Shown here: positions 103 to 10,537 of the stretch, one piece after another
How positions within the stretch are numbered: position 1 is the first letter of the stretch
Layout: each line of letters opens with the position of its first letter
Assembly (NCBI RefSeq): GCF_900113765.1
Contig: NZ_FOQO01000008.1
Location: 1 to 64,000, forward strand
Reading direction: 5' to 3'
Source of the DNA: Parapedobacter indicus
GTDB lineage: Bacteria; Bacteroidota; Bacteroidia; Sphingobacteriales; Sphingobacteriaceae
DNA: 64,000 bases
Made by a program: the position numbers and the translations under genes
Notes under the pieces: model-generated
Seen by the model: the letters and a program-made list of their open reading frames with translations, nothing else
Database searches by the model: none
What the model was told of the DNA's origin: nothing

Positions 103-3100
103 CTAATACCGTATTGCAAAGTATCCCTTCCGGTGCTCCCATTTCCCGTTCACCTTCACCTCCACGATGTAGAAGTAGGTGCCTGCGGGCAGCTGTAGTC
201 CCGCCGTGCTGATGCCGCGGAACACCACCCGGTCGTTGTCGTAGCCGCTGGCCTCCCACAGAACCGTCCCGTTACGGCTGATCACCGTCACACGGTTCTC
301 CGGATAATCCTTTATACCTTCCACCACCAGGAACTCATTGATCCCGTCGCCGTTCGGCGATACCGCCGGATGTACCCGTACCGCAAAGTTCGAGGAACGA
401 TCCGTCACAACAATGGCCACCGTAACCGGTTCGGCCGCTTCGTAATTGCCGTCGCCTGCCTGCAAGGCCGTGATGTGAACCGTGCCCAGCCGGAGAATGT
501 TCAGCGTATTGCCGCTCACCGTAGCAACCTGTTCGTCGTCCACTTCCAGCGTTACCGGAAGACCGCTGCCTGCTGACACATCCAACTGGATGCTGCCCGC
601 GCTCCGGTCAACCTCCGCAGGGGCCGTGAAGGTGATCGCCTGCCCGGCCTTCACCACCGTCAATGTGGCACCGTGGTAGGTGAATGCGTAATCCGCCGAC
701 TCGCCGCCGCTTACTGTGATGGCATAGCTGCCCGGTACGCTCGTTTCCGTGGCATCCGTTGCTGCCGAAGGTATCCGGTCAAGCGAAGAAGCATCCTCTC
801 CGGACACGAAACCGTCGTAGGACACTTCAAATGCCGGGTTGGCTTCGCCGTAGGCCCGCTTGGCATCTTGTATGCTGACCGAAAGCGGTGCCCTGACGAT
901 GTGCAGGGTTCTGCTCACCGCTGCTGCCGCAGCATATTCCAGACTGCCATCCTGGCTCGCTGCGATCACCACCTCTCCTGCGCTGTGGATATGGAGTTTG
1001 TTATCGTTTCCGATGGATGCGATAGCTGTAGCGTTGCCTTCCAGATCCGTCACCGTATAGCTCACCGGCAGGCCGCTTGTGGCCGTTGCGCCCAGTGTGA
1101 CCGGTCCCTCGCCGTAAGTCACCCCTTCCGGTTCAACAAAGGTGATCGTCTGTGGCTTGTTATCCACCAGCAGTAAGCCTACCGATACCGAGCGCTCCCC
1201 CTTGCCGCCGGAAACAATGCCGTTCGCCTGAAGTGTATGTTGACCCAGTTCCAAGTTTGTGGGCACCGGCAGCGTGCCCGCAAAATTGCCCGAGCCATCT
1301 ACCGTCAGGTGGCCCACCAGCTCGGGTATCGAAAACAGGTATACCGTCACCACAGTACCCGGCTCAAAGCCGTTGCCACTGATGTAAACCGCGGCACCCG
1401 CGCCTCGTACCAACCGGATGACCGCATCGATCGCCGAGATCGGGATCCGCTCGCCATTCGTGCCCAACGAGGACAGTTCCATGGCATAGCCATCCCCACG
1501 GAGCCTCAAATATTCTTCATCTACCACCTCTAGCGTAATGGCCTCGATGCCACCGTCCGTAATCACCACTGTCTCTCCAGGTTCAGGTTTGGGAAGTTCA
1601 CCGTCTGCGTTGGGTATCGGCTTTGTCGGGATGATGTCCGTAAGCGCCGCACTGAACACACCGGTGCCAACAGCGTTTTCAGCAGCAACACGGAGCCGGT
1701 AGGATCGATTGTTGTCTAAGCCGATTACTACGGCCTGCGTGTCGGCAGAGGTGGCGTGCTTCGCCGCAATCCACGTTTGTCCACCGTCATGGGAATATTG
1801 GATCACGTAATTCTTAATCGGCTGTCCGCCATCCGAAGGAGATTGCCAACTTAGTTTCACCTGCCGATCTCCAGCAGTAGCCGAAAGCCCGGTCGGTATA
1901 CCCGGAACCGCCCCGGGCTCTACCGGAATATCTGAAACCGTGAATTTCACCACTGTCTCGTTGCCTTCCGTATCCCTTACAATCAGTGTATATTCACCTT
2001 CTTCGGTTATGGTTGTACCTGATGTATATGGCTTTCCGTTCAAGGTCGCCGTACCCACTTCGAAGATCGGCGTCACCGCTTTGTTGTATACCGCACCATT
2101 CGTAACTCCCGTCACTACAGGGTTCGCTTTGTAAAAAGTTACGCTACTCCCATCCGTTGTAGCCACCACATCCACAGCCTCATTGCCTGCGGCATCGCCA
2201 AGACCGCTTACTGCAAATTCGATGACCCCTTCGATGTCGGCCGTCGTAAGCACGTATTCCGCCTTCCACGACAGACCGCCGTCATCCTCCGCACTCACGG
2301 TTGCAGTCTGACCTGCGATCGTTACTAACGGTGTCCGGATCGACTCACTCGCAGTAAATGTTAGTGCCACTTTATTCCCTACCTTTGCTACGGAAGCGGT
2401 CGCATTATTCGATACGATAGCCACAACCGTTAATTCTGGCCGGATGCCATCGATGCGGATACCCACCGTTGAAACCGGGCAGTAAGAAAACGTTGCATCA
2501 AGGACAATACCATCAATATCTTTGTCGCCCTCCGCCACCTTATAGCCAAAGATTACCTCATGGCCATTGTCGGACGTTCCGACAACGGATGCATTTTTGG
2601 ACTGATTGCCGACCGTTAATTGCAGGGAAGGATCATCGCCGACATTCACAGGCTGGTGAAAATCAACTGTAAAAAGAAGCTTATCACCTATTTTATACAT
2701 GCTATCCGCAGGAACGGTCAACCGTGGCGTGAGCACCTCGGTATACTCCAAAGCACCAATATCCACCGTGCCCCACGCAAGTCTCGGATTGCCTGCCACA
2801 TCATTGTGACCGGTCAGCGAGTCCAGCCCGCCTCGATACCGCATATTATCGCCCGCATTTATTGCCGGGCTGCACCCCACAAGTTGGTAGTTGCCGGCAA
2901 CGGTCGGAACATCTGCGGTTGCAGGTTGATAATCTGCAAAGATATCCGAAGGTAAGCCTACATATTCTTTGCCATTAACCACATTATGGCCTTCCAATCC
3001 ACCAATCAGGTTGTTTCCGGATAGCGGAGATATAGTACCCTCATAATCGGCTGGTCCATTGCCCCAAACTAGGCTGTTCTGCAACGTCGCACTTCCTCCA

Positions 3101-6100
3101 TCGGCTACCTTTATACCCGCATCTCCGGCTATGTTACCGCTGATCGTTGCGTTGAGTACATTTACAGCCGAGTTGCGCCCCACATAGATGCCTCCGCCAC
3201 CTCTTGCAATATTGCCCGTGATAACGGTATTAATCAGTGTAATCGACGCACCGTCAGTAGCGGTCAAGCCACCGCCTCCGCCGTCGGAAAAATTGCCGCT
3301 GATCTTCACATTGATCAATACCGGGTGCGAATCGCCGTCGCTACTCAGGGCACCGCCGTAACTTGTGGCATTATTGTTTTGTAGAACCACATTGATCAGC
3401 GTTGGTGAAGCATTGACATTTGCAATTCCACCGCCTTTATAGGCCTGTATATTTCCACTGATCATCAAATTCCGTAAAATCGGTGAAGCAAAGTAATTAC
3501 GGATTCCCCCACCAAAAGCTGACGTCGCAATACCTTTGGTAATCGTAAAGCCATCTAAAATCGCCGTTGCAGCCAATGTGTCTTTTTTGCTATAACTATT
3601 ATCGACGACCGTTCTTTCCTCATTCCCCGACAAAATCGTCTCATTTCCGACCCAGTTGCGTTCGCCCAGCTCCGTTTCATTCCCCGAAAAACCACCGTAA
3701 ATTGCGACTCCATTTTTCATGCGGAAACTGGTGTCCGGCGCAACGTAAGTGCCTGCCGCTACCCAAACTTCGCCACCGCCTTTCGCAGCAAGTACGTCGA
3801 TCATTGCCTGCAGGTCGCTGCTTGCCGTACTCCAGCCGTTTCCGATTCCGGTAGGTGTCCCACCGTTGCTTTGTGCTTTTACAAAACGGACACTGCTACC
3901 GGCAACCACCGGTCCTACGCGGAGGCTTTCTACGGCCGTTCCGTCGTCTTCGCCGTCACTGGGCAGTACCTCCACACTAATCCATTTATCGACATCCCCA
4001 GCCTGTAGCACATAGGTCGCCGCTGTAGCTCCCTCAATGGTTGTTTTACCCCCGTCTCCCACGGCGGTATCATAGCGGTACCACGTAAAGGTCGAAGCCT
4101 CTGTATCTTCATCGGCATCCAAGTAGGTATAATTGGCGGACAACCTGCCGCCCACTTCCAGCAACCCCTCGGCCGTCACACCGGAAACTACCGGCGGTGT
4201 ATTGGGTATGATAGGCGGTGTACCCGATGTCATCACGCTGGGAATACTGCGGGAGACAGCGACAAACAATTCATTTGCGTGGGTGAGCCCTGCCCATATC
4301 CCCATTTCTGCAGCTGCCTGAGCGGTCCAGTTGATTCCATCCGGACTGGTCATCACATAATTATCACCATGCCTGGATACCGCCACGAACTGACCTTCGC
4401 CATAGGTGACATCCATCCAAATGCCTCCGTGTGTGTTTTCCACACTCCAGTTGGCACCATCGGTGCTGATCATCGCCTTGCCGTCATCAGACACCGCAAC
4501 AAACCGATCGGCACCATAGGTTACCGCTACCCATTGGCCGGTTGTCTCCGGGGTTTGTACCGTCCAATTCTCTCCATCCGGACTGGTCATTACATAATTG
4601 GAACCATAAATAGACACCGCTACAAACTGCCCGGCACCATATGTGACAGACAACCAGTAGCCCTTATGCGCCAACACCGAGGTCCAATCCGTTCCGTTTT
4701 CGCTGACCATCACGTGATTGCCCTCGCCTCCCTCAAAAGCAACAGCCACAAACTTGCCATTGCCGTAGGTCACCGATCGCCAAGTCCTATCTTCCGACGC
4801 CGGGTGGGCATCCCAATTGACGCCATCCGTGCTGGTCATGACACGATTTGTTCCGTCCTGCGCAACTGCAACGAACTTCCCATCTCCGAAGGTGATATCT
4901 TGCCAAGCATTGCTTTCCGGAACAGTCCGCGCCGTCCAATTCACCCCATCCGGACTGGTCATGACCCGGTTTGTGCCCCCATAGGCCACTGCTACAAACA
5001 AACCATTTCCATAAGCCACCGAATTCCATTGACCTTCCGGTGCTGGTGTCCGTAATGCCCATTCGCTGCCCGGAACTGGGCCGGCTTCCCCAATTGGCCC
5101 TTGAGCTTCACTTTCCACCCCTGTTCCGTCAACAGAACCATCATTCGGTGTTACCTCGAAGCTGATGAACTTACCTTCGTCCTCAGCTTGTAACGTATAG
5201 GTTTTTTCAGTGGCACCATCAATGGCAGCCTTATTGGAAACCGATGCATCATCCGCTCGGTACCACTTAAACGTTGATTTATCTTCGTCGGCATCCGGAT
5301 CGTCGAAGGTGTAGTTCCCTATTAGCGTTGCGCCTACTTTTAATGTACCCGTAAACGATACATCCACTGCGCTAGGCACACCATTAGGTATACTAACCTC
5401 GCTTTCATAAGCTCCGATGTCAATGATGCCTCGGAGACTGTATTCATAGAGCCGCTGATTACCTGCCACATCCTTATCCTCATCTAGATTACCGCCGGCC
5501 GATACATAGGCATCGTTGCTGCCTGCATTTGCAGCCGGACTGGTCGCTTTGAGACTCAGGTTACCGCCCGTCGTCGGCATATCGGTCAGATCTATGTCTT
5601 CCTCAAATTGCGGATCACCGCTAATGTTGTTACCACCATTGACACCGATCGTTCTTATCCAATCGCCATTGTCGTCTAAGCTATTGGCAATAAGGCTGTA
5701 TGAAATAGACGGGATGTAAGGGAGATAGCCAGTGTAGTTGAAAATAGATGCGGAAACCGTTTCAGCATCCCCGCCAGCCGTGTTATTCCAAATGATCGAA
5801 TTGACCAATTCAAAACCAGCAGTACTGTATATACCGCCGCCCGCACCTGCCGCATTGCCACTGATGGTAACATTGGTGAAGGTCGAATTACTTGCATTAT
5901 ATATTCCGCCACCTTGGTTTGTCGCTGAATTACCTCTGATGACGACATTTTTAACCGCTAAAGCACCTGCATAGATGTAGAGCCCCCCGCCCTGACTTGT
6001 TGCCGAATTACCGCTAATCACCACATTCGTCAACTTGGCATCGGCGCCTTGACTATACATTCCACCACCGTTAGCGGCCACGTTGTCTATGATCGATACA

Positions 6101-8310
6101 TTGGTAAAGGTTGCAAGGCTACCGGAATTATGTATCCCCCCACCTGTCGTAACAGCGGAATTGCCACAAATAACCACGTCGGTAAAAACCGGCTTAGACT
6201 CGATTCCGCTAATGATAATTCCGCCAGCTTGGCCTACGGTAGCCGTATTGTCACGGATGGTTACATTCGTAAAGGTTGCATCAGCACTGTTCATCACCCC
6301 TGCCGCATAAGCTGCGGAATTGTTACTAATGACCACGTCGGTCAAGGTAGGATTTCCACCTTGGATAGAAAATCCGCCACCCCACTCTCCCGCGATATTG
6401 TTGCGGATGGTCACATCGGTCAGCTTTGGACTCGAACCGTCTTCACTTAACATTCCCCCCCCACTATTCGCCGCCTCATTGTATTCAATCGTAACGTGAT
6501 TCAACACGGGAACGGCACTACTTCCATAATTATACATGCCACCGCCATCATCATCGGTCGCCAAATTATGGCTGATTGTGACATCAGTGATCATGGGAGA
6601 TGCGCCATCGTTATGCATTCCTCCGCCTCCTCTTAACGCTTTATTGCCGATAATGGCCAGGTTGGTAAGCGTTGGTTTACCGCCCAGGTTGGAGATGCCA
6701 CCGCCCCTAATGCCGTTTGGCCCGGTATCGGCATTGCCCGCCGTGATGGTAAAACCATCGAGGATAGCGGTATTAAGCGTCGCCAAACCCGTCACGACGT
6801 GATAGCTGTTGTTTCCTATTATCTGCGTAGCAGGATCGGTGATGATTTCTTCCGCATCATCGTTGCCAATATCGCCGCTTAGAATCGTCTTGTAGGTGTC
6901 CCAATTGCGTTCATCCATCGTAGGTGTCCCGCTGTTGGGAAATCCGCCATAGATTTCCACGCCACTTTGCAATGGAAAGGTAGCCGCGCGGTCCGACGGA
7001 TTGCTTGTCGGTGTGTATTTGCCTTCGGCCACCCAGATTTGCAGCGTACCGTCGGTCGCTGCGTTCCAGTTACCCTTGGCCCATTGTAAAGCGTCCGACA
7101 GTTCATTGATGGCGTTGGGCCAGCTGTCGCCGGATCTGTTACCGCCTTCAACGTTTTTATTGACATATAAAATTCCAGCTGCATCCGGGCTAATTTCTGC
7201 TGCTGCCGGTTCATCGCGCAGGTAAGGATAGGCTGCGCCCCCATCTACGGCCCAATCGTTGATGAAATCAAATCCATCAAACGATGCAGCATTCTTAAAC
7301 TGACTATCTGAAAGTCCGGTCATCCCACTGGATGAGCCGTTGCCTACGGCGTTAGCCCGTCCTGAGGTTGTCATGTTCCAGTAACCATGCGTAACAGTCC
7401 CCTGAGCGTCACCCACCAAACCACCAACCTGGCTAGTACCCGACACGCTGCCTGTGGCGTAACTGGTTGTAATAGTCGTGGCCATATAATGGTAACCGAC
7501 AAGCCCACCGACGACATTACCGCCCGATACATTACCCATGGCGTAGCTAGTAGTTATGGAACCGCTATTAGTACCGGCCAAACCACCAACATTATTACCG
7601 CCCGTAACACTGCCCGTGGCGTAGCTGGAGATGAGAGGACCACCATTAAAACCTATCAGACCTCCAATATGGGTCACTATGCCTGAAACACTGGCCGTTG
7701 CATAACTCCGGACAGTAGTGCTATTTGCGGTCATGCCAATTAAACCGCCGACAGCGGAATTACCTGAAACGCTACCCGTGACGTAACACACTTCGATGGT
7801 ACTGCCCGGTTGGACACTGCCCGCTAAGCCACCGACATTGTCACCCCCAACGATATTGACTCCCTCTAGGGCCACATTGCTAATCTTAGCCGGCTTGCCG
7901 ATTATGCCAACCATACCGAACAGGCCGACATATGAAACCATATCAACCGTGGGGCGGTTTATGCTCAAACCCGTTATCTTCTTGCTATTTCCGTTAAACG
8001 AACCAACAAACTGAGCATCTATACCCGGCTTGCCAACTGGCTCAAACCCGGCACCACTGTTCCATCCTGCTGTTACTGAAGCATTGATGTCGGCGACGAG
8101 GATAAAATGCTTGTCCAAATGCTCCCTCATGGCCTGAAGCTGTTCTACAGTTGCAATCTGATAGGGGTTGTCTTCCGTGCCGCTTCCGCCCGCAAAGGAC
8201 ACACCGGGGACACTCCCTGCCAGGCGGGTGACAATCAACAATGTAAGTAATGTGTTAAGCAGCAGCTGTCCGACTAATTTCGGACCCGTTGAACGAGTAA
8301 AAATATGCAT
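103..8310 (-). CDS. Giant T9SS-secreted surface protein: GLUG repeats, two beta-helices, propeller, Ig/FN3/MBG domains
   Basis: Exported repeat protein of about 2735 residues, probably a surface adhesin. I start it at ATG 8310 because a signal peptide follows at once (MHIFTRSTGPKLVGQLLLNT); the longer frame to 8415 begins with TTG and adds 35 residues unlike a signal. Order from the N-terminus: GLUG-type repeats (VGGLxG...SYATGSV, about nt 7380-7870); a right-handed beta-helix of GNSAT..GGGIYN-type coils (about nt 5700-6800); an Ig-like domain; seven WxSVTYGxGxFVAV repeats forming a predicted propeller (about nt 4220-5060); another Ig-like domain; a second beta-helix (about nt 2980-3900); FN3 (about nt 1650-1920); MBG-type domains; and a C-terminal domain with VSPNGDGIN...GTYFYIVEV..GYFAIRY, the type B T9SS sorting signal. 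Role as adhesin is inferred. Confidence 0.9.
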   Translation of the reverse strand: MHIFTRSTGPKLVGQLLLNTLLTLLIVTRLAGSVPGVSFAGGSGTEDNPYQIATVEQLQAMREHLDKHFILVADINASVTAGWNSGAGFEPVGKPGIDAQFVGSFNGNSKKITGLSINRPTVDMVSYVGLFGMVGIIGKPAKISNVALEGVNIVGGDNVGGLAGSVQPGSTIEVCYVTGSVSGNSAVGGLIGMTANSTTVRSYATASVSGIVTHIGGLIGFNGGPLISSYATGSVTGGNNVGGLAGTNSGSITTSYAMGNVSGGNVVGGLVGYHYMATTITTSYATGSVSGTSQVGGLVGDAQGTVTHGYWNMTTSGRANAVGNGSSSGMTGLSDSQFKNAASFDGFDFINDWAVDGGAAYPYLRDEPAAAEISPDAAGILYVNKNVEGGNRSGDSWPNAINELSDALQWAKGNWNAATDGTLQIWVAEGKYTPTSNPSDRAATFPLQSGVEIYGGFPNSGTPTMDERNWDTYKTILSGDIGNDDAEEIITDPATQIIGNNSYHVVTGLATLNTAILDGFTITAGNADTGPNGIRGGGISNLGGKPTLTNLAIIGNKALRGGGGMHNDGASPMITDVTISHNLATDDDGGGMYNYGSSAVPVLNHVTIEYNEAANSGGGMLSEDGSSPKLTDVTIRNNIAGEWGGGFSIQGGNPTLTDVVISNNSAAYAAGVMNSADATFTNVTIRDNTATVGQAGGIIISGIESKPVFTDVVICGNSAVTTGGGIHNSGSLATFTNVSIIDNVAANGGGMYSQGADAKLTNVVISGNSATSQGGGLYIYAGALAVKNVVIRGNSATNQGGGIYNASNSTFTNVTISGNAAGAGGGIYSTAGFELVNSIIWNNTAGGDAETVSASIFNYTGYLPYIPSISYSLIANSLDDNGDWIRTIGVNGGNNISGDPQFEEDIDLTDMPTTGGNLSLKATSPAANAGSNDAYVSAGGNLDEDKDVAGNQRLYEYSLRGIIDIGAYESEVSIPNGVPSAVDVSFTGTLKVGATLIGNYTFDDPDADEDKSTFKWYRADDASVSNKAAIDGATEKTYTLQAEDEGKFISFEVTPNDGSVDGTGVESEAQGPIGEAGPVPGSEWALRTPAPEGQWNSVAYGNGLFVAVAYGGTNRVMTSPDGVNWTARTVPESNAWQDITFGDGKFVAVAQDGTNRVMTSTDGVNWDAHPASEDRTWRSVTYGNGKFVAVAFEGGEGNHVMVSENGTDWTSVLAHKGYWLSVTYGAGQFVAVSIYGSNYVMTSPDGENWTVQTPETTGQWVAVTYGADRFVAVSDDGKAMISTDGANWSVENTHGGIWMDVTYGEGQFVAVSRHGDNYVMTSPDGINWTAQAAAEMGIWAGLTHANELFVAVSRSIPSVMTSGTPPIIPNTPPVVSGVTAEGLLEVGGRLSANYTYLDADEDTEASTFTWYRYDTAVGDGGKTTIEGATAATYVLQAGDVDKWISVEVLPSDGEDDGTAVESLRVGPVVAGSSVRFVKAQSNGGTPTGIGNGWSTASSDLQAMIDVLAAKGGGEVWVAAGTYVAPDTSFRMKNGVAIYGGFSGNETELGERNWVGNETILSGNEERTVVDNSYSKKDTLAATAILDGFTITKGIATSAFGGGIRNYFASPILRNLMISGNIQAYKGGGIANVNASPTLINVVLQNNNATSYGGALSSDGDSHPVLINVKISGNFSDGGGGGLTATDGASITLINTVITGNIARGGGGIYVGRNSAVNVLNATISGNIAGDAGIKVADGGSATLQNSLVWGNGPADYEGTISPLSGNNLIGGLEGHNVVNGKEYVGLPSDIFADYQPATADVPTVAGNYQLVGCSPAINAGDNMRYRGGLDSLTGHNDVAGNPRLAWGTVDIGALEYTEVLTPRLTVPADSMYKIGDKLLFTVDFHQPVNVGDDPSLQLTVGNQSKNASVVGTSDNGHEVIFGYKVAEGDKDIDGIVLDATFSYCPVSTVGIRIDGIRPELTVVAIVSNNATASVAKVGNKVALTFTASESIRTPLVTIAGQTATVSAEDDGGLSWKAEYVLTTADIEGVIEFAVSGLGDAAGNEAVDVVATTDGSSVTFYKANPVVTGVTNGAVYNKAVTPIFEVGTATLNGKPYTSGTTITEEGEYTLIVRDTEGNETVVKFTVSDIPVEPGAVPGIPTGLSATAGDRQVKLSWQSPSDGGQPIKNYVIQYSHDGGQTWIAAKHATSADTQAVVIGLDNNRSYRLRVAAENAVGTGVFSAALTDIIPTKPIPNADGELPKPEPGETVVITDGGIEAITLEVVDEEYLRLRGDGYAMELSSLGTNGERIPISAIDAVIRLVRGAGAAVYISGNGFEPGTVVTVYLFSIPELVGHLTVDGSGNFAGTLPVPTNLELGQHTLQANGIVSGGKGERSVSVGLLLVDNKPQTITFVEPEGVTYGEGPVTLGATATSGLPVSYTVTDLEGNATAIASIGNDNKLHIHSAGEVVIAASQDGSLEYAAAAAVSRTLHIVRAPLSVSIQDAKRAYGEANPAFEVSYDGFVSGEDASSLDRIPSAATDATETSVPGSYAITVSGGESADYAFTYHGATLTVVKAGQAITFTAPAEVDRSAGSIQLDVSAGSGLPVTLEVDDEQVATVSGNTLNILRLGTVHITALQAGDGNYEAAEPVTVAIVVTDRSSNFAVRVHPAVSPNGDGINEFLVVEGIKDYPENRVTVISRNGTVLWEASGYDNDRVVFRGISTAGLQLPAGTYFYIVEVKVNGKWEHRKGYFAIRY
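4220..5060 (-). repeat. Seven tandem propeller-blade repeats inside the giant surface protein
   Basis: Seven consecutive units of about 38-42 codons, each starting with W followed by (S/D/A)VTYGxGxFVAV, then VMTSPDG and NWT. The pattern resembles BNR/sialidase-type blades. Seven units with this spacing suit a seven-bladed beta-propeller. The last unit is shortened and has lost part of the motif (ELFVAVSRSIPSVMTS). Confidence 0.75.
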
Positions 8311-8359
8311 AGGTATGCGGTCTATTAAGCAGTGAGAATGAGATTGTGTTCGATGGTTA

Positions 8360-8379
8360 AGGCATGGGTAAACATGCCT
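8360..8379 (-). promoter_or_regulatory. Hairpin in the 5' leader of the giant surface protein
   Basis: On the minus strand AGGCATG and CATGCCT form a perfect 7-bp stem around a TTTACC loop. It lies between the promoter-like element at 8413-8457 and the start codon at 8310. Its function is not known. Confidence 0.4.
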
Positions 8380-8412
8380 AAGTAAATTTTCATAGTAGTA
8401 GATATTTAGTCG

Positions 8413-8457
8413 CAAAGAAAAATATTCCGATTAAGAATATGCCCACCCAAAAGGGTA
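8413..8457 (-). promoter_or_regulatory. Bipartite palindromic promoter-like element, copy 1 (giant surface protein)
   Basis: Read on the minus strand: ACCCTTTTGGGT (perfect palindrome, 8445-8456), a short linker, a second dyad TATTCT-N5-GGAATA (8423-8439), then TTTCTTTG (8413-8420). TTTCTTTG differs by one base from the Bacteroidota -7 box TAnnTTTG. There is no clear -33 box; the dyad occupies that place, which suggests an activator or an alternative sigma factor. Predicted transcription start is near 8407, about 97 nt before the gene. Two further copies are at 8842 and 9192. Confidence 0.65.
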
Positions 8458-8617: not shown

Positions 8618-8836
8618 AAAAAAACGGCAGAATCGGCTTACTATGAAAACCGATTACTACCGTTTTCCTTTTCGGCCGAAGGAGCGAATCGGCCATCGTT
8701 CAGGTGCCCCATTGTCTATGCGGTTATTACTTATAACGCTAATATTCGATCGTGTATCGCATTGTACGTTTTGCTACTGCTCCTCATTAACATGCTAGAT
8801 AATATACATCGATTCAGCTAATTTATATAGTAGATG
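8618..8836 (-). ncRNA. Putative structured small RNA A
   Basis: Predicted transcript of about 219 nt from promoter-like copy 2 to a 7-T run at 8618-8624. The 3' 88 nt (8705 to 8618) match the 3' 88 nt of RNA B in length and layout: ACCTGAAC; a hairpin GGCCGA/TCGGCC whose loop contains GCTCC; the linker ACGGTAGT; and a terminator hairpin ATCGG/CCGAT with outer ACGG/CCGT, followed by T7. Stem bases differ from RNA B while pairing is kept. No convincing protein is encoded; the longest ATG frame noticed is about 20 codons. Start site is a prediction. Confidence 0.55.
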
Positions 8837-8841
8837 TATTA

Positions 8842-8887
8842 CAAAGAAATGTATTCCATATTGGAATATACCTACCCAAAAGGGTGG
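8842..8887 (-). promoter_or_regulatory. Bipartite palindromic promoter-like element, copy 2 (RNA A)
   Basis: Same layout as copy 1: ACCCTTTTGGGT (8874-8885), dyad TATTCC-N5-GGAATA on the minus strand (8852-8868, perfect arms), then TTTCTTTG (8842-8849). It points at RNA A. Copies 1 and 2 also share ATCTACTA just downstream. Confidence 0.65.
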
Positions 8888-8933
8888 CTTTTCATTTTTC
8901 CAACACTGCAACCCAAGGCCGTAATATGCTGGC

Positions 8934-9186
8934 AAAAAAACAGCAGGATCAGTCTTTTAAACTGATCACTACCGTTCTAAATATCGGCCAAAAGGAGCAA
9001 TTTTTTGGCCAGAGTTCAGGTTAGCCCACATTAATATCACTGCAAAACTACGAAAGCCCATATGGCTAAAACCTTAGGTGGTTAAGCCATCCGGATATGG
9101 CTACACCTCCCGAAGAAATCTTAGGTCCTGTTATTTGATGCGATACACAATCATTGGCCTAATATTTTTTTTCACTATTAGAATGA
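8934..9186 (-). ncRNA. Putative structured small RNA B
   Basis: Predicted transcript of about 253 nt from promoter-like copy 3 to a 7-T run at 8934-8940. Its 3' 88 nt (9021 to 8934) parallel RNA A: ACCTGAAC; hairpin GGCCAAAA/TTTTGGCC with a loop containing GCTCC; ACGGTAGT; terminator hairpin GATCAG/CTGATC with outer ACGG/CTGT; T7. Further upstream it can form AGCCAT/ATGGCT (about 9075-9100). No protein coding is apparent. Function is unknown; the promoter shared with the adjacent surface protein suggests joint control. Confidence 0.55.
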
Positions 9187-9191
9187 TGAAA

Positions 9192-9238
9192 CAAAGAAAG
9201 AAATTCCCGTTAGGAATATACCTACCCAAAAAGGGTGG
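9192..9238 (-). promoter_or_regulatory. Bipartite palindromic promoter-like element, copy 3 (RNA B)
   Basis: Minus strand: ACCCTTTTTGGGT (one extra T, 9224-9236), dyad TATTCC-N5-GGAATT (9202-9218), then TTTCTTTG (9192-9199). Spacing between the parts is as in copies 1 and 2. It points at RNA B. Confidence 0.65.
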
Positions 9239-9408: not shown

Positions 9409-9463
9409 CCATAATGATACCATAATTTCTCCATAATGATACCATAATTTCTCCATAATGACA
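9409..9463. repeat. 11-bp tandem repeat, five copies of CCATAAT-N4
   Basis: Five units of exactly 11 bp begin with CCATAAT at 9409, 9420, 9431, 9442 and 9453. Tails alternate GATA, TTCT, GATA, TTCT, GACA, so a 22-bp unit is also visible. The period is close to one DNA turn, so a protein could bind one face. It lies about 170 bp upstream of promoter-like copy 3. Confidence 0.7.
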
Positions 9464-9531
9464 CCTTAATTTTCTGTTATTTCATGGACTCAATAGGGAC
9501 GGTTTATGATGTTATCAATGATACATGGTGA

Positions 9532-9745: not shown

Positions 9746-10537
9746 ATGCAAAGGGCTCCCAAGCGGGTAAATCAGACACTCGCCACTAAGGTAAGCGCAC
9801 TCGAATTCGGCTTGGCAGCCATATGCGCTAAGGCAATACGCGAAGTCTTCCATAACGTATACGAAGAATACGACGGCTATATGGTAAGACGGCTTACTGC
9901 AACAATCGCTGCATGTATCCGGACATCGGACAACGATGCCGGAGCGCGTGATTTACACGATGGGGACCTGAGTTTATTGAAAGGATTCACATTCAATACA
10001 GCTGCACCATTTGAGCGATTGGTTGCCGTGTCACCGACACTTGAGGTGGTTCACAACGGTACCATCCATTTCCAAATGCCACTGTTCATTCCGAAGGAAG
10101 ACGTTGTATACCCATCCAACCTTCTTCGGCCAAACGGCTGTTTTGGCATCTATATAGTGGCATTCAGCTTCCGTGACGGCCGTGTGCATATTATCGACTA
10201 CGCCGGTTTCGACGTTGCGTACGATGAAAGCAATCCACGGGAAATCAACTGGACATGCAGCAAGCGACTTCCTAAAGGTTACATCGTTCTGGTTATATTT
10301 GGGTTGCGTTATTTTTCCTTGAACTGGCTGAAGCAACGGGTACAAACGACCGATAAGGACTTCTATCCGACGATCGTCCTTGATGCTTTTCATGTGACCG
10401 ACGAAATGGCCACATTGGGAATCGAAGACAATCTTGAAGAGCCATCAGAGAAAAATTTGTCGGGTTTGGAAACAATAGAGGCCGACAGCCTTAAACGAGA
10501 GATCGCGAAACTGAAGAAAAAAGCGGCAAAAAAATAG
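9746..10537 (+). CDS. Uncharacterised protein of Bacteroidota
   Basis: 263 codons from the first in-frame ATG; the natural N-terminus probably begins about 27 residues earlier (see the frameshift entry at 9666). I do not recognise a named domain. The start (NGKQIMQRAPKRVNQT) recalls the N-termini of DUF6266-like Sphingobacterial proteins. The rest has no signal peptide and no membrane segment. The C-terminus is charged and probably helical (EADSLKREIAKLKKKAAKK). It ends 6 bp from the convergent epimerase gene. Function unknown. Confidence 0.65.
   Translation: MQRAPKRVNQTLATKVSALEFGLAAICAKAIREVFHNVYEEYDGYMVRRLTATIAACIRTSDNDAGARDLHDGDLSLLKGFTFNTAAPFERLVAVSPTLEVVHNGTIHFQMPLFIPKEDVVYPSNLLRPNGCFGIYIVAFSFRDGRVHIIDYAGFDVAYDESNPREINWTCSKRLPKGYIVLVIFGLRYFSLNWLKQRVQTTDKDFYPTIVLDAFHVTDEMATLGIEDNLEEPSEKNLSGLETIEADSLKREIAKLKKKAAKK

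Follow-up and report, generated by a model that had tools for sequence, protein, structure and literature searches.

A candidate pair of sibling small RNAs beside a giant surface-protein gene of Parapedobacter indicus, with an apparent origin in giant-gene coding sequence

Two short segments that resemble each other lie upstream of a giant surface-protein gene in Parapedobacter indicus, in the same direction as the gene, and the question they raise is what they are, where they came from and how they relate to their large neighbor. The locus belongs to a 64-kb stretch (hereafter the window) of a 6.16-Mb genome in 33 contigs. The initial annotation of this DNA had described two minus-strand copies of exactly 88 nt, and both are indeed there, forming the conserved cores of what we call sRNA A and sRNA B (Table 1). 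They match at 64 of 92 aligned positions, a score that none of 1,000 dinucleotide shuffles attained, and each folds on its own (A, -37.1 kcal/mol, z -5.55; B, -33.9 kcal/mol, z -7.17; no equal among 200 shuffles in either case). The shared parts ACCTGAAC, GCTCC, ACGGTAGT and T7 were correctly listed for A and B, but GCTCC is lost in a third homologue described below. The description of ACGGTAGT as a linker has to be given up, as it is the 5' arm of the second hairpin, where the partner of AACGGTAG is CTGCCGTT (A) or CTGCTGTT (B). Hairpin 2 and T7 make up a single 14-bp intrinsic terminator with one bulge, and the same kind of 3' end was found in all three homologues (long stem and T7 in A and B, stem and T run in the third). 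With this terminator as its second element, the RNA would have a defined 3' end. A pseudoknot between the loop and the leader (GCUCCU with AGGAGC in leader A) was considered and rejected, as 69 of 500 shuffles were as good when only Watson-Crick pairs were counted and B offers no good partner.

Table 1. Features of the small RNA locus, large ORFs that follow the operator, and copies of Element 2. Positions without a contig or locus name are those of the window.
Feature	Position	Strand	Description	Basis
sRNA A conserved core	8618..8705	-	88 nt; 3' end of predicted ~220-nt transcript	Fold, pairing, covariance model (training sequence)
sRNA B conserved core	8934..9021	-	88 nt; 3' end of predicted ~250-nt transcript	Fold, pairing, model R2 E 2.2e-21 (training sequence)
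sRNA A hairpin 1	8673..8695	-	TGGCCGA / TCGGCCG, loop TTCGCTCCT	Fold and pairing
sRNA B hairpin 1	8985..9011	-	TGGCCAAAA / TTTTGGCCG, loop AATTGCTCC	Fold and pairing
sRNA A intrinsic terminator	8618..8664	-	AACGGTAG-T-AATCGG ... CCGATT-CTGCCGTT + T run	Fold and pairing
sRNA B intrinsic terminator	8934..8976	-	AACGGTAG-T-GATCAG ... CTGATC-CTGCTGTT + T run	Fold and pairing
Predicted 5' part of sRNA A transcript	8706..8835	-	Scant likeness to other leaders	Predicted start site
Predicted 5' part of sRNA B transcript	9022..9186	-	Homologous to G006 leader	Start predicted from -7 box
Promoter/operator of sRNA B	9192..9236	-	ACCCTTTTTGGGTAGG dyad, ATTCC-N5-GGAAT, TTTCTTTG (-7-like)	Pattern match, regulon context
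Promoter/operator of sRNA A	8842..8885	-	Same layout as that of sRNA B	Pattern match
Promoter/operator of giant surface-protein gene	8413..8456	-	Same layout as that of sRNA B	Pattern match
Giant secreted protein ORF	103..8415	-	2770 aa as listed; first in-frame ATG (MHIFTRS...) near 8310	ORF list, Pfam, translation
fn3-coding segment resembling sRNA transcript in sense	1696..1821	-		Full-transcript profile, 12.1 bits, E 0.033
Large ORF after operator	Window		Giant surface-protein gene	
Large ORF after operator	G006:C14		Giant gene	
Large ORF after operator	C32		1903 aa to contig end; CHU_C	
Large ORF after operator	C17		>=1481 aa, cut by stretch end; Laminin_G_3	
Large ORF after operator	C23 end		2644 aa; CHU_C not found	
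Large ORF after operator	G008		>=405 aa, cut by stretch end	
Element 2 copies	L221 11055, 10135, 1615 (coding), 92	-		Core match
Element 2 copies	L223 4210; L224 3751; L228 1501	+		Core match

A search for more copies in relatives had been proposed, and it brought out a third one with stem changes. The two-sequence covariance model, run against 100 genomes including the source genome, found one further clear homologue (G006:C8, E 3.2e-12), in one of the eight other genomes of the genus. This genome, G006, is that of a sister species; its copy keeps hairpin 1 with other letters (GGCCAAGG/CCTTGGTC), has the same promoter upstream and retains the terminator. A three-sequence model including this copy was then searched against nine genomes of the genus, with at most 150 candidates scored, and recovered the same three sRNAs, which are thus present in two of the nine. 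The other seven gave no sRNA with this model, at a candidate number that weak homologues could escape, and the stretches of 7.7-8.7 kb starting at the epimerase gene in the seven other genus genomes contained no model match. The wide spread through Bacteroidota that might have been expected was not borne out, as 2 of the 399 family genomes searched had a clear homologue (at most 10 first-look candidates scored per genome). At E <=0.1, and with the same number of candidates, 18 family genomes had a match. The weak matches across the 399 genomes fell in 22 places, namely the three sRNAs, two in giant genes and 17 elsewhere; 10 of these 17 were examined and rejected, since most turned out to be the ends of genes that have an ordinary terminator, and the 260 nt upstream lacked an ACCC..GGGT dyad in every case. 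A loose gapped pattern picked up at least 119 stretches in genome contigs and 10 in viral contigs, which all look like chance matches; scoring of 80 of the former (L018-L097) by model R1 gave no sRNA (best 16.2 bits, E 0.87). The plasmid collection held no match to the sRNA.

The observation that the stems vary and still pair was upheld by the alignment of A, B and the G006 copy, where pairing is kept by paired changes: 98.4% of the 63 cells pair, and both sides have changed in 3 of the 21 pairs, against 17.5-52.4% paired and zero to one double-changed pairs when the structures were slid by 1-3 columns. Covariation alone is nevertheless modest evidence, since there are three sequences, 21 of 500 within-column shuffles did as well in both paired percentage and double changes, and pair types were no more numerous than in such shuffles (500/500). 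The segments belong to no named RNA family, as had been suspected: none of the 4227 families of Rfam 15 reached its gathering score anywhere in the window, where the best permissive match was AS-pc01 (22.6 bits against a cut-off of 79), and the best Rfam match of the G006 homologue had 14.4 bits against a cut-off of 45.

The same promoter-like element was said to precede both copies and the giant gene, and this is the case; it starts 180 nt before the core in A and 215 nt before it in B. It consists of an ACCC-TTTT-GGGT dyad followed after ~20 bp by a TAnnTTTG-like box, and the sRNA and giant-gene promoters contain a second dyad, ATTCC/ATTCT-N5-GGAAT. TAnnTTTG is the -7 consensus of Bacteroidota, as quoted in the part of PMC7366714 consulted. 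In all three sRNAs the string TTTCTTTG, a putative -7 box that differs from TAnnTTTG at the second base, follows the dyad at a fixed position. The strict promoter form occurs three times in the 6.16-Mb genome, always at this locus (reversed-pattern controls, 0), and the strict double-dyad pattern was found at these three sites and before the G006 sRNA alone in 41 genomes. Of 399 family genomes, 2 contain the TnnCTTTG form of the promoter. Six sites, in four of the nine genus genomes, combine the dyad with TAnnTTTG 19-22 bp downstream, and reversed controls gave none. When a longer operator was allowed up to two mismatches, 15 sites appeared in the same four genomes, again with no reversed-control match; this set leaves out the promoters of sRNA B and the G006 sRNA, which have an extra T in the dyad. 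The five genus genomes in which the longer operator was not found are all also without a detected sRNA.

The genes downstream of these 15 sites outline a candidate regulon. Six sites precede response-regulator genes (two each in C23, G006:C1 and G003:C6, both G003:C6 sites lying before one gene), six precede large ORFs (Table 1), and the remaining three precede sRNA A, a bactofilin gene and a 281-aa ORF (G003:C16). CHU_C was found in three of the six large ORFs, and of the other three, those of C17 and G008 are incomplete. The four regulators scanned have Response_reg and GerE domains, and one of them, scanned against NCBIfam, had NarL as its best match (103.9 bits, below the cut-off of 250). 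We naturally infer that a LuxR/NarL-type response regulator, regulating its own gene, would act at the dyad; sRNAs A and B, with related cores and one shared operator, would then be siblings under its control. The operator copy before the bactofilin gene (PF04519, E 2.9e-25), at G000:C28:67957-67978 (L014), is perfect, and this gene is possibly a further member of the regulon.

The giant protein of the window has Beta_helix and fn3 domains, MBG_2 and the type IX secretion signal CHU_C (Pfam), and that of G006, with 2821 aa, has MBG_2, fn3, Beta_helix and CHU_C. The three-sequence covariance model matches not only the sRNAs but also both of these genes (G006:C14:58915-59009, E 1.6e-4; window 1687-1781, E 0.038). 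A profile HMM of the full transcript, built from the three sequences and without structure, was searched against 0.81 Mb in 96 records, a harsher background than usual since 80 of the 96 were chosen for an sRNA-like pattern. Its best match after the three sRNAs was the sense strand of the G006 giant gene where it encodes fn3 (L177 5040-4923, 31.8 bits, E 3.1e-8, a value flattering by about 60-fold because the locus was first picked from whole-genome searches of nine genomes). The second best was the orthologous spot in the giant gene of the window, where similarity is weak, 12.1 bits against 9.3 for the next, unrelated record at chance level. The best score of 300 column-shuffled models against both giant genes was 5.4 bits, column shuffling being a lenient control, and the best matches in a reversed database had E 9.4 with the core profile and E 4.8 with the full profile.

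Smith-Waterman comparisons of single sequences were less uniform. In sense similarity to the G006 segment, 0 of 200 shuffles were as good for A, 19 of 200 for B and 5 of 200 for the G006 sRNA, and for the giant gene of the window the figures were 28, 165 and 106 of 200. Among six tests of complementarity to the giant genes, the best was that of A with the G006 segment, which 4 of 200 shuffles equaled, and the poorest was equaled by 169 of 200. No giant-gene match was found for any sRNA by single-sequence blastn at E 0.05, and no protein-frame similarity was found between the sRNAs and the giant-gene segment. Considering the profile matches, a sense fragment of a giant gene is the most likely ancestor of the sRNA. 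The statement that the segments are a conserved RNA and not a DNA repeat thus holds for the structure with its compensatory changes and has to be qualified by the sense likeness to a coding segment of the giant gene.

We therefore put at roughly 60% the probability that A and B are a genus-restricted pair of sibling sRNAs, members of a response-regulator regulon, that were born from a giant-gene fragment and act in trans. Each would be a minus-strand transcript with a giant-gene promoter copy of its own, probably under the control of the LuxR/NarL-type regulator through the ACCC-TTTT-GGGT dyad, and the transcript would end some 220-250 nt on, at the strong intrinsic terminator, with its 3' 88 nt folded into hairpin 1 and the terminator hairpin. 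As to birth, a copy of the giant-gene promoter probably came to stand before a sense fn3-coding fragment of the giant gene, and this fragment would then have lost its reading frame and evolved as an RNA. The co-regulated siblings most likely act in trans, adjusting other mRNAs of the same surface programme whenever the giant adhesin is turned on; the pneumococcal csRNAs and FopS of Bacteroides, described below, can serve as working models. Several points weigh against this account: the RNAs are predicted from sequence, the covariation is thin (three pairs in three sequences from two species), and the GCTCC loop, the obvious seed, is not kept. Hybridization of the sRNAs with five leaders of the regulon did not exceed that of shuffles (z -1.33 to +1.43), by a weak method that allows whole-length duplexes. 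The leader of B is related to that of G006 (95/168 identical in a gapped alignment, 0/500 shuffles as high), but leader A is not recognizably related to the others (29/500 shuffles as high against B, 88/500 against G006).

Another conserved stretch, Element 2 (core GTTGCGGnGGTAGAACGCAAC, up to ~130 nt), was seen beside the response-regulator and giant-gene loci, most copies having two hairpin-like parts by eye. Its core has seven copies, six apparently intergenic and one within a giant ORF, in four of the nine genus genomes and none in controls, and these are the same four genomes that have the operator. No Rfam match was found at the loci searched, which were all but that of G008. The C23 copy at 10135 resembles the coding copy of C23 (77% over 88 nt, blastn E 1.3e-14), and the coding counterpart lies after MBG_2 and before CHU_C in the giant gene, so that pieces related to giant genes recur outside genes, near these promoters. 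At G000:C23:448000-462000 (L221), tandem genes for LuxR/NarL-type response regulators, separated by dyad promoters and copies of Element 2, precede the gene of a 2680-aa giant protein (FIVAR, Invasin_D3, fn3, MBG_2 and CHU_C).

That apparently non-coding giant-gene fragments such as Element 2 exist at these loci, and that the sRNA is present in just two of nine genus genomes, would also suit a relic, that is, a duplicated promoter before a decayed piece of the giant gene, possibly transcribed and without a job. We consider this unlikely. Between the two species, the core of B is identical at 66 of 91 positions (in a gapped alignment, whose gaps raise identity somewhat) and the promoter at 50 of 59, against 89 of 174 fourfold sites in the neighboring aldose-epimerase gene. 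Core and promoter are thus conserved above fourfold sites, which argues against a relic, and the stems still pair through their changes, with the terminator intact in each copy.

Element 2 also bears on a broader idea, that the giant type IX-secreted adhesin genes of the genus repeatedly yield structured non-coding RNAs that are selected as mimics of the giant mRNA and tune its fate. Sense fragments, from fn3 for the sRNAs and from the MBG_2-CHU_C stretch for Element 2, would have come to stand next to the regulated promoter of the family. We offer this as a speculative and rather doubtful proposal; if true, it would mean sRNAs made from, and acting on, one gene family. The corresponding role for A and B, as sense decoys, appears improbable. 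In this role the RNAs would stand in for the fn3 segment of the giant mRNA, which carries the hairpins, and would titrate an RNase, an RNA-binding protein or an antisense RNA that acts on this mRNA, which would be protected or tuned. The shared sense and promoter speak for such mimicry, and the G006 mRNA segment can fold into both sRNA hairpins with GCUCC in the first loop. However, neither mRNA segment folds significantly better than shuffles (G006, z -1.78, 11/200; window, z -0.71, 47/200), the segment of the window is weakly sRNA-like with a different hairpin 1, and the binding factor is putative.

Tandem, terminator-ended copies just upstream of the giant gene and in its direction could be thought to form a cis-acting leader or attenuator array governing read-through into it. 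This role is very unlikely because the G006 homologue, at a syntenic spot and with the same promoter, has no adjoining giant gene. It adjoins the same aldose epimerase (91% identical) and hemB, hemC/D and hemA as in the window, and stands alone before a convergent gene; the next large ORF being convergent, it is not placed as the leader of a controlled gene, as a riboswitch or cis attenuator would be. The giant gene of G006 is on another contig, beside enolase and with its own dyad, and that of the window has its own promoter copy past the last terminator. The sRNA can thus occur apart from the giant gene, and this argues against attenuation in cis. On the other side of sRNA B in the window, short direct repeats (TTATGGTATCATTATGGAGAAA-like, by eye) lie at 9410-9480, before a 263-aa ORF (9746-10537, plus strand) without a Pfam or NCBIfam match. 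Finally, short peptide genes can hardly be the explanation: ORFs do enter the core (A, MGHLNDGRFAPSAEKENGSNRFS; B, MWANLNSGQKIAPFGRYLER from an internal ATG in frame, within a 30-aa ORF), with ATG at matching places in A and B and 3-nt length differences up to the loop, but the frames part after it, where B stops at ACGGTAG and A enters the terminator, G006 has TTG for ATG, and the length of the ORF varies.

Sibling sRNAs that end in a terminator and answer to a response regulator are a known kind. LhrC1-5 of Listeria monocytogenes have known targets and UCCC-rich loops. They are activated by the response regulator LisR (PMC5880928), and the likeness, drawn by description from a portion of that paper, lies in sibling sRNAs with a response regulator, here a putative one. 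The CiaR-controlled csRNAs of Streptococcus pneumoniae form a family of five small RNAs under one response regulator, with two members in tandem, and act by complementarity to comC mRNA between the Shine-Dalgarno sequence and the start codon (PMC4507080). They resemble A and B as related siblings, in tandem arrangement and with a single regulator (putative in our case), but belong to another phylum and have a known target, and birth from a fragment is not described in the part of that source on which this likening by description is based. Within Bacteroidota, FopS and GibS of Bacteroides thetaiotaomicron are also paralogous small RNAs, and FopS represses outer-membrane (SusC-like) mRNAs (PMC11697453, PMC7366714). 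As described in sections of the first of these papers, FopS RNAs have ~65-70 nt, a shared 5' region, 14 members and canonical promoters, whereas the family presented here comprises two members with predicted lengths of 220-250 nt, conservation in the 3' part and a dyad promoter. Rfp18 of Flavobacterium psychrophilum is, according to the text drawn from PMC9723704, a structured sRNA conserved across Flavobacterium with a putative secreted adhesin among its predicted targets; the comparison, again by description, concerns a structured Bacteroidota sRNA with a link to adhesins, genus-wide in the case of Rfp18.

Among the matches listed in a search of the open-access literature, nothing was found on this sRNA or on the operator string. 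The sRNA family and its apparent birth from a co-regulated gene look new, although a published parallel for pseudogene-derived sRNAs or mRNA mimics may exist. The finding would join an unlisted sRNA family of Bacteroidota to a candidate regulon comprising a dyad operator, a LuxR/NarL-type regulator and giant adhesins. It would also be an unusually young and traceable case of the birth of an sRNA: since the likely parent segment is still recognizable and the sRNA was not found in seven of nine genus genomes, the passage from coding fragment to terminator-ended sRNA could be studied directly.
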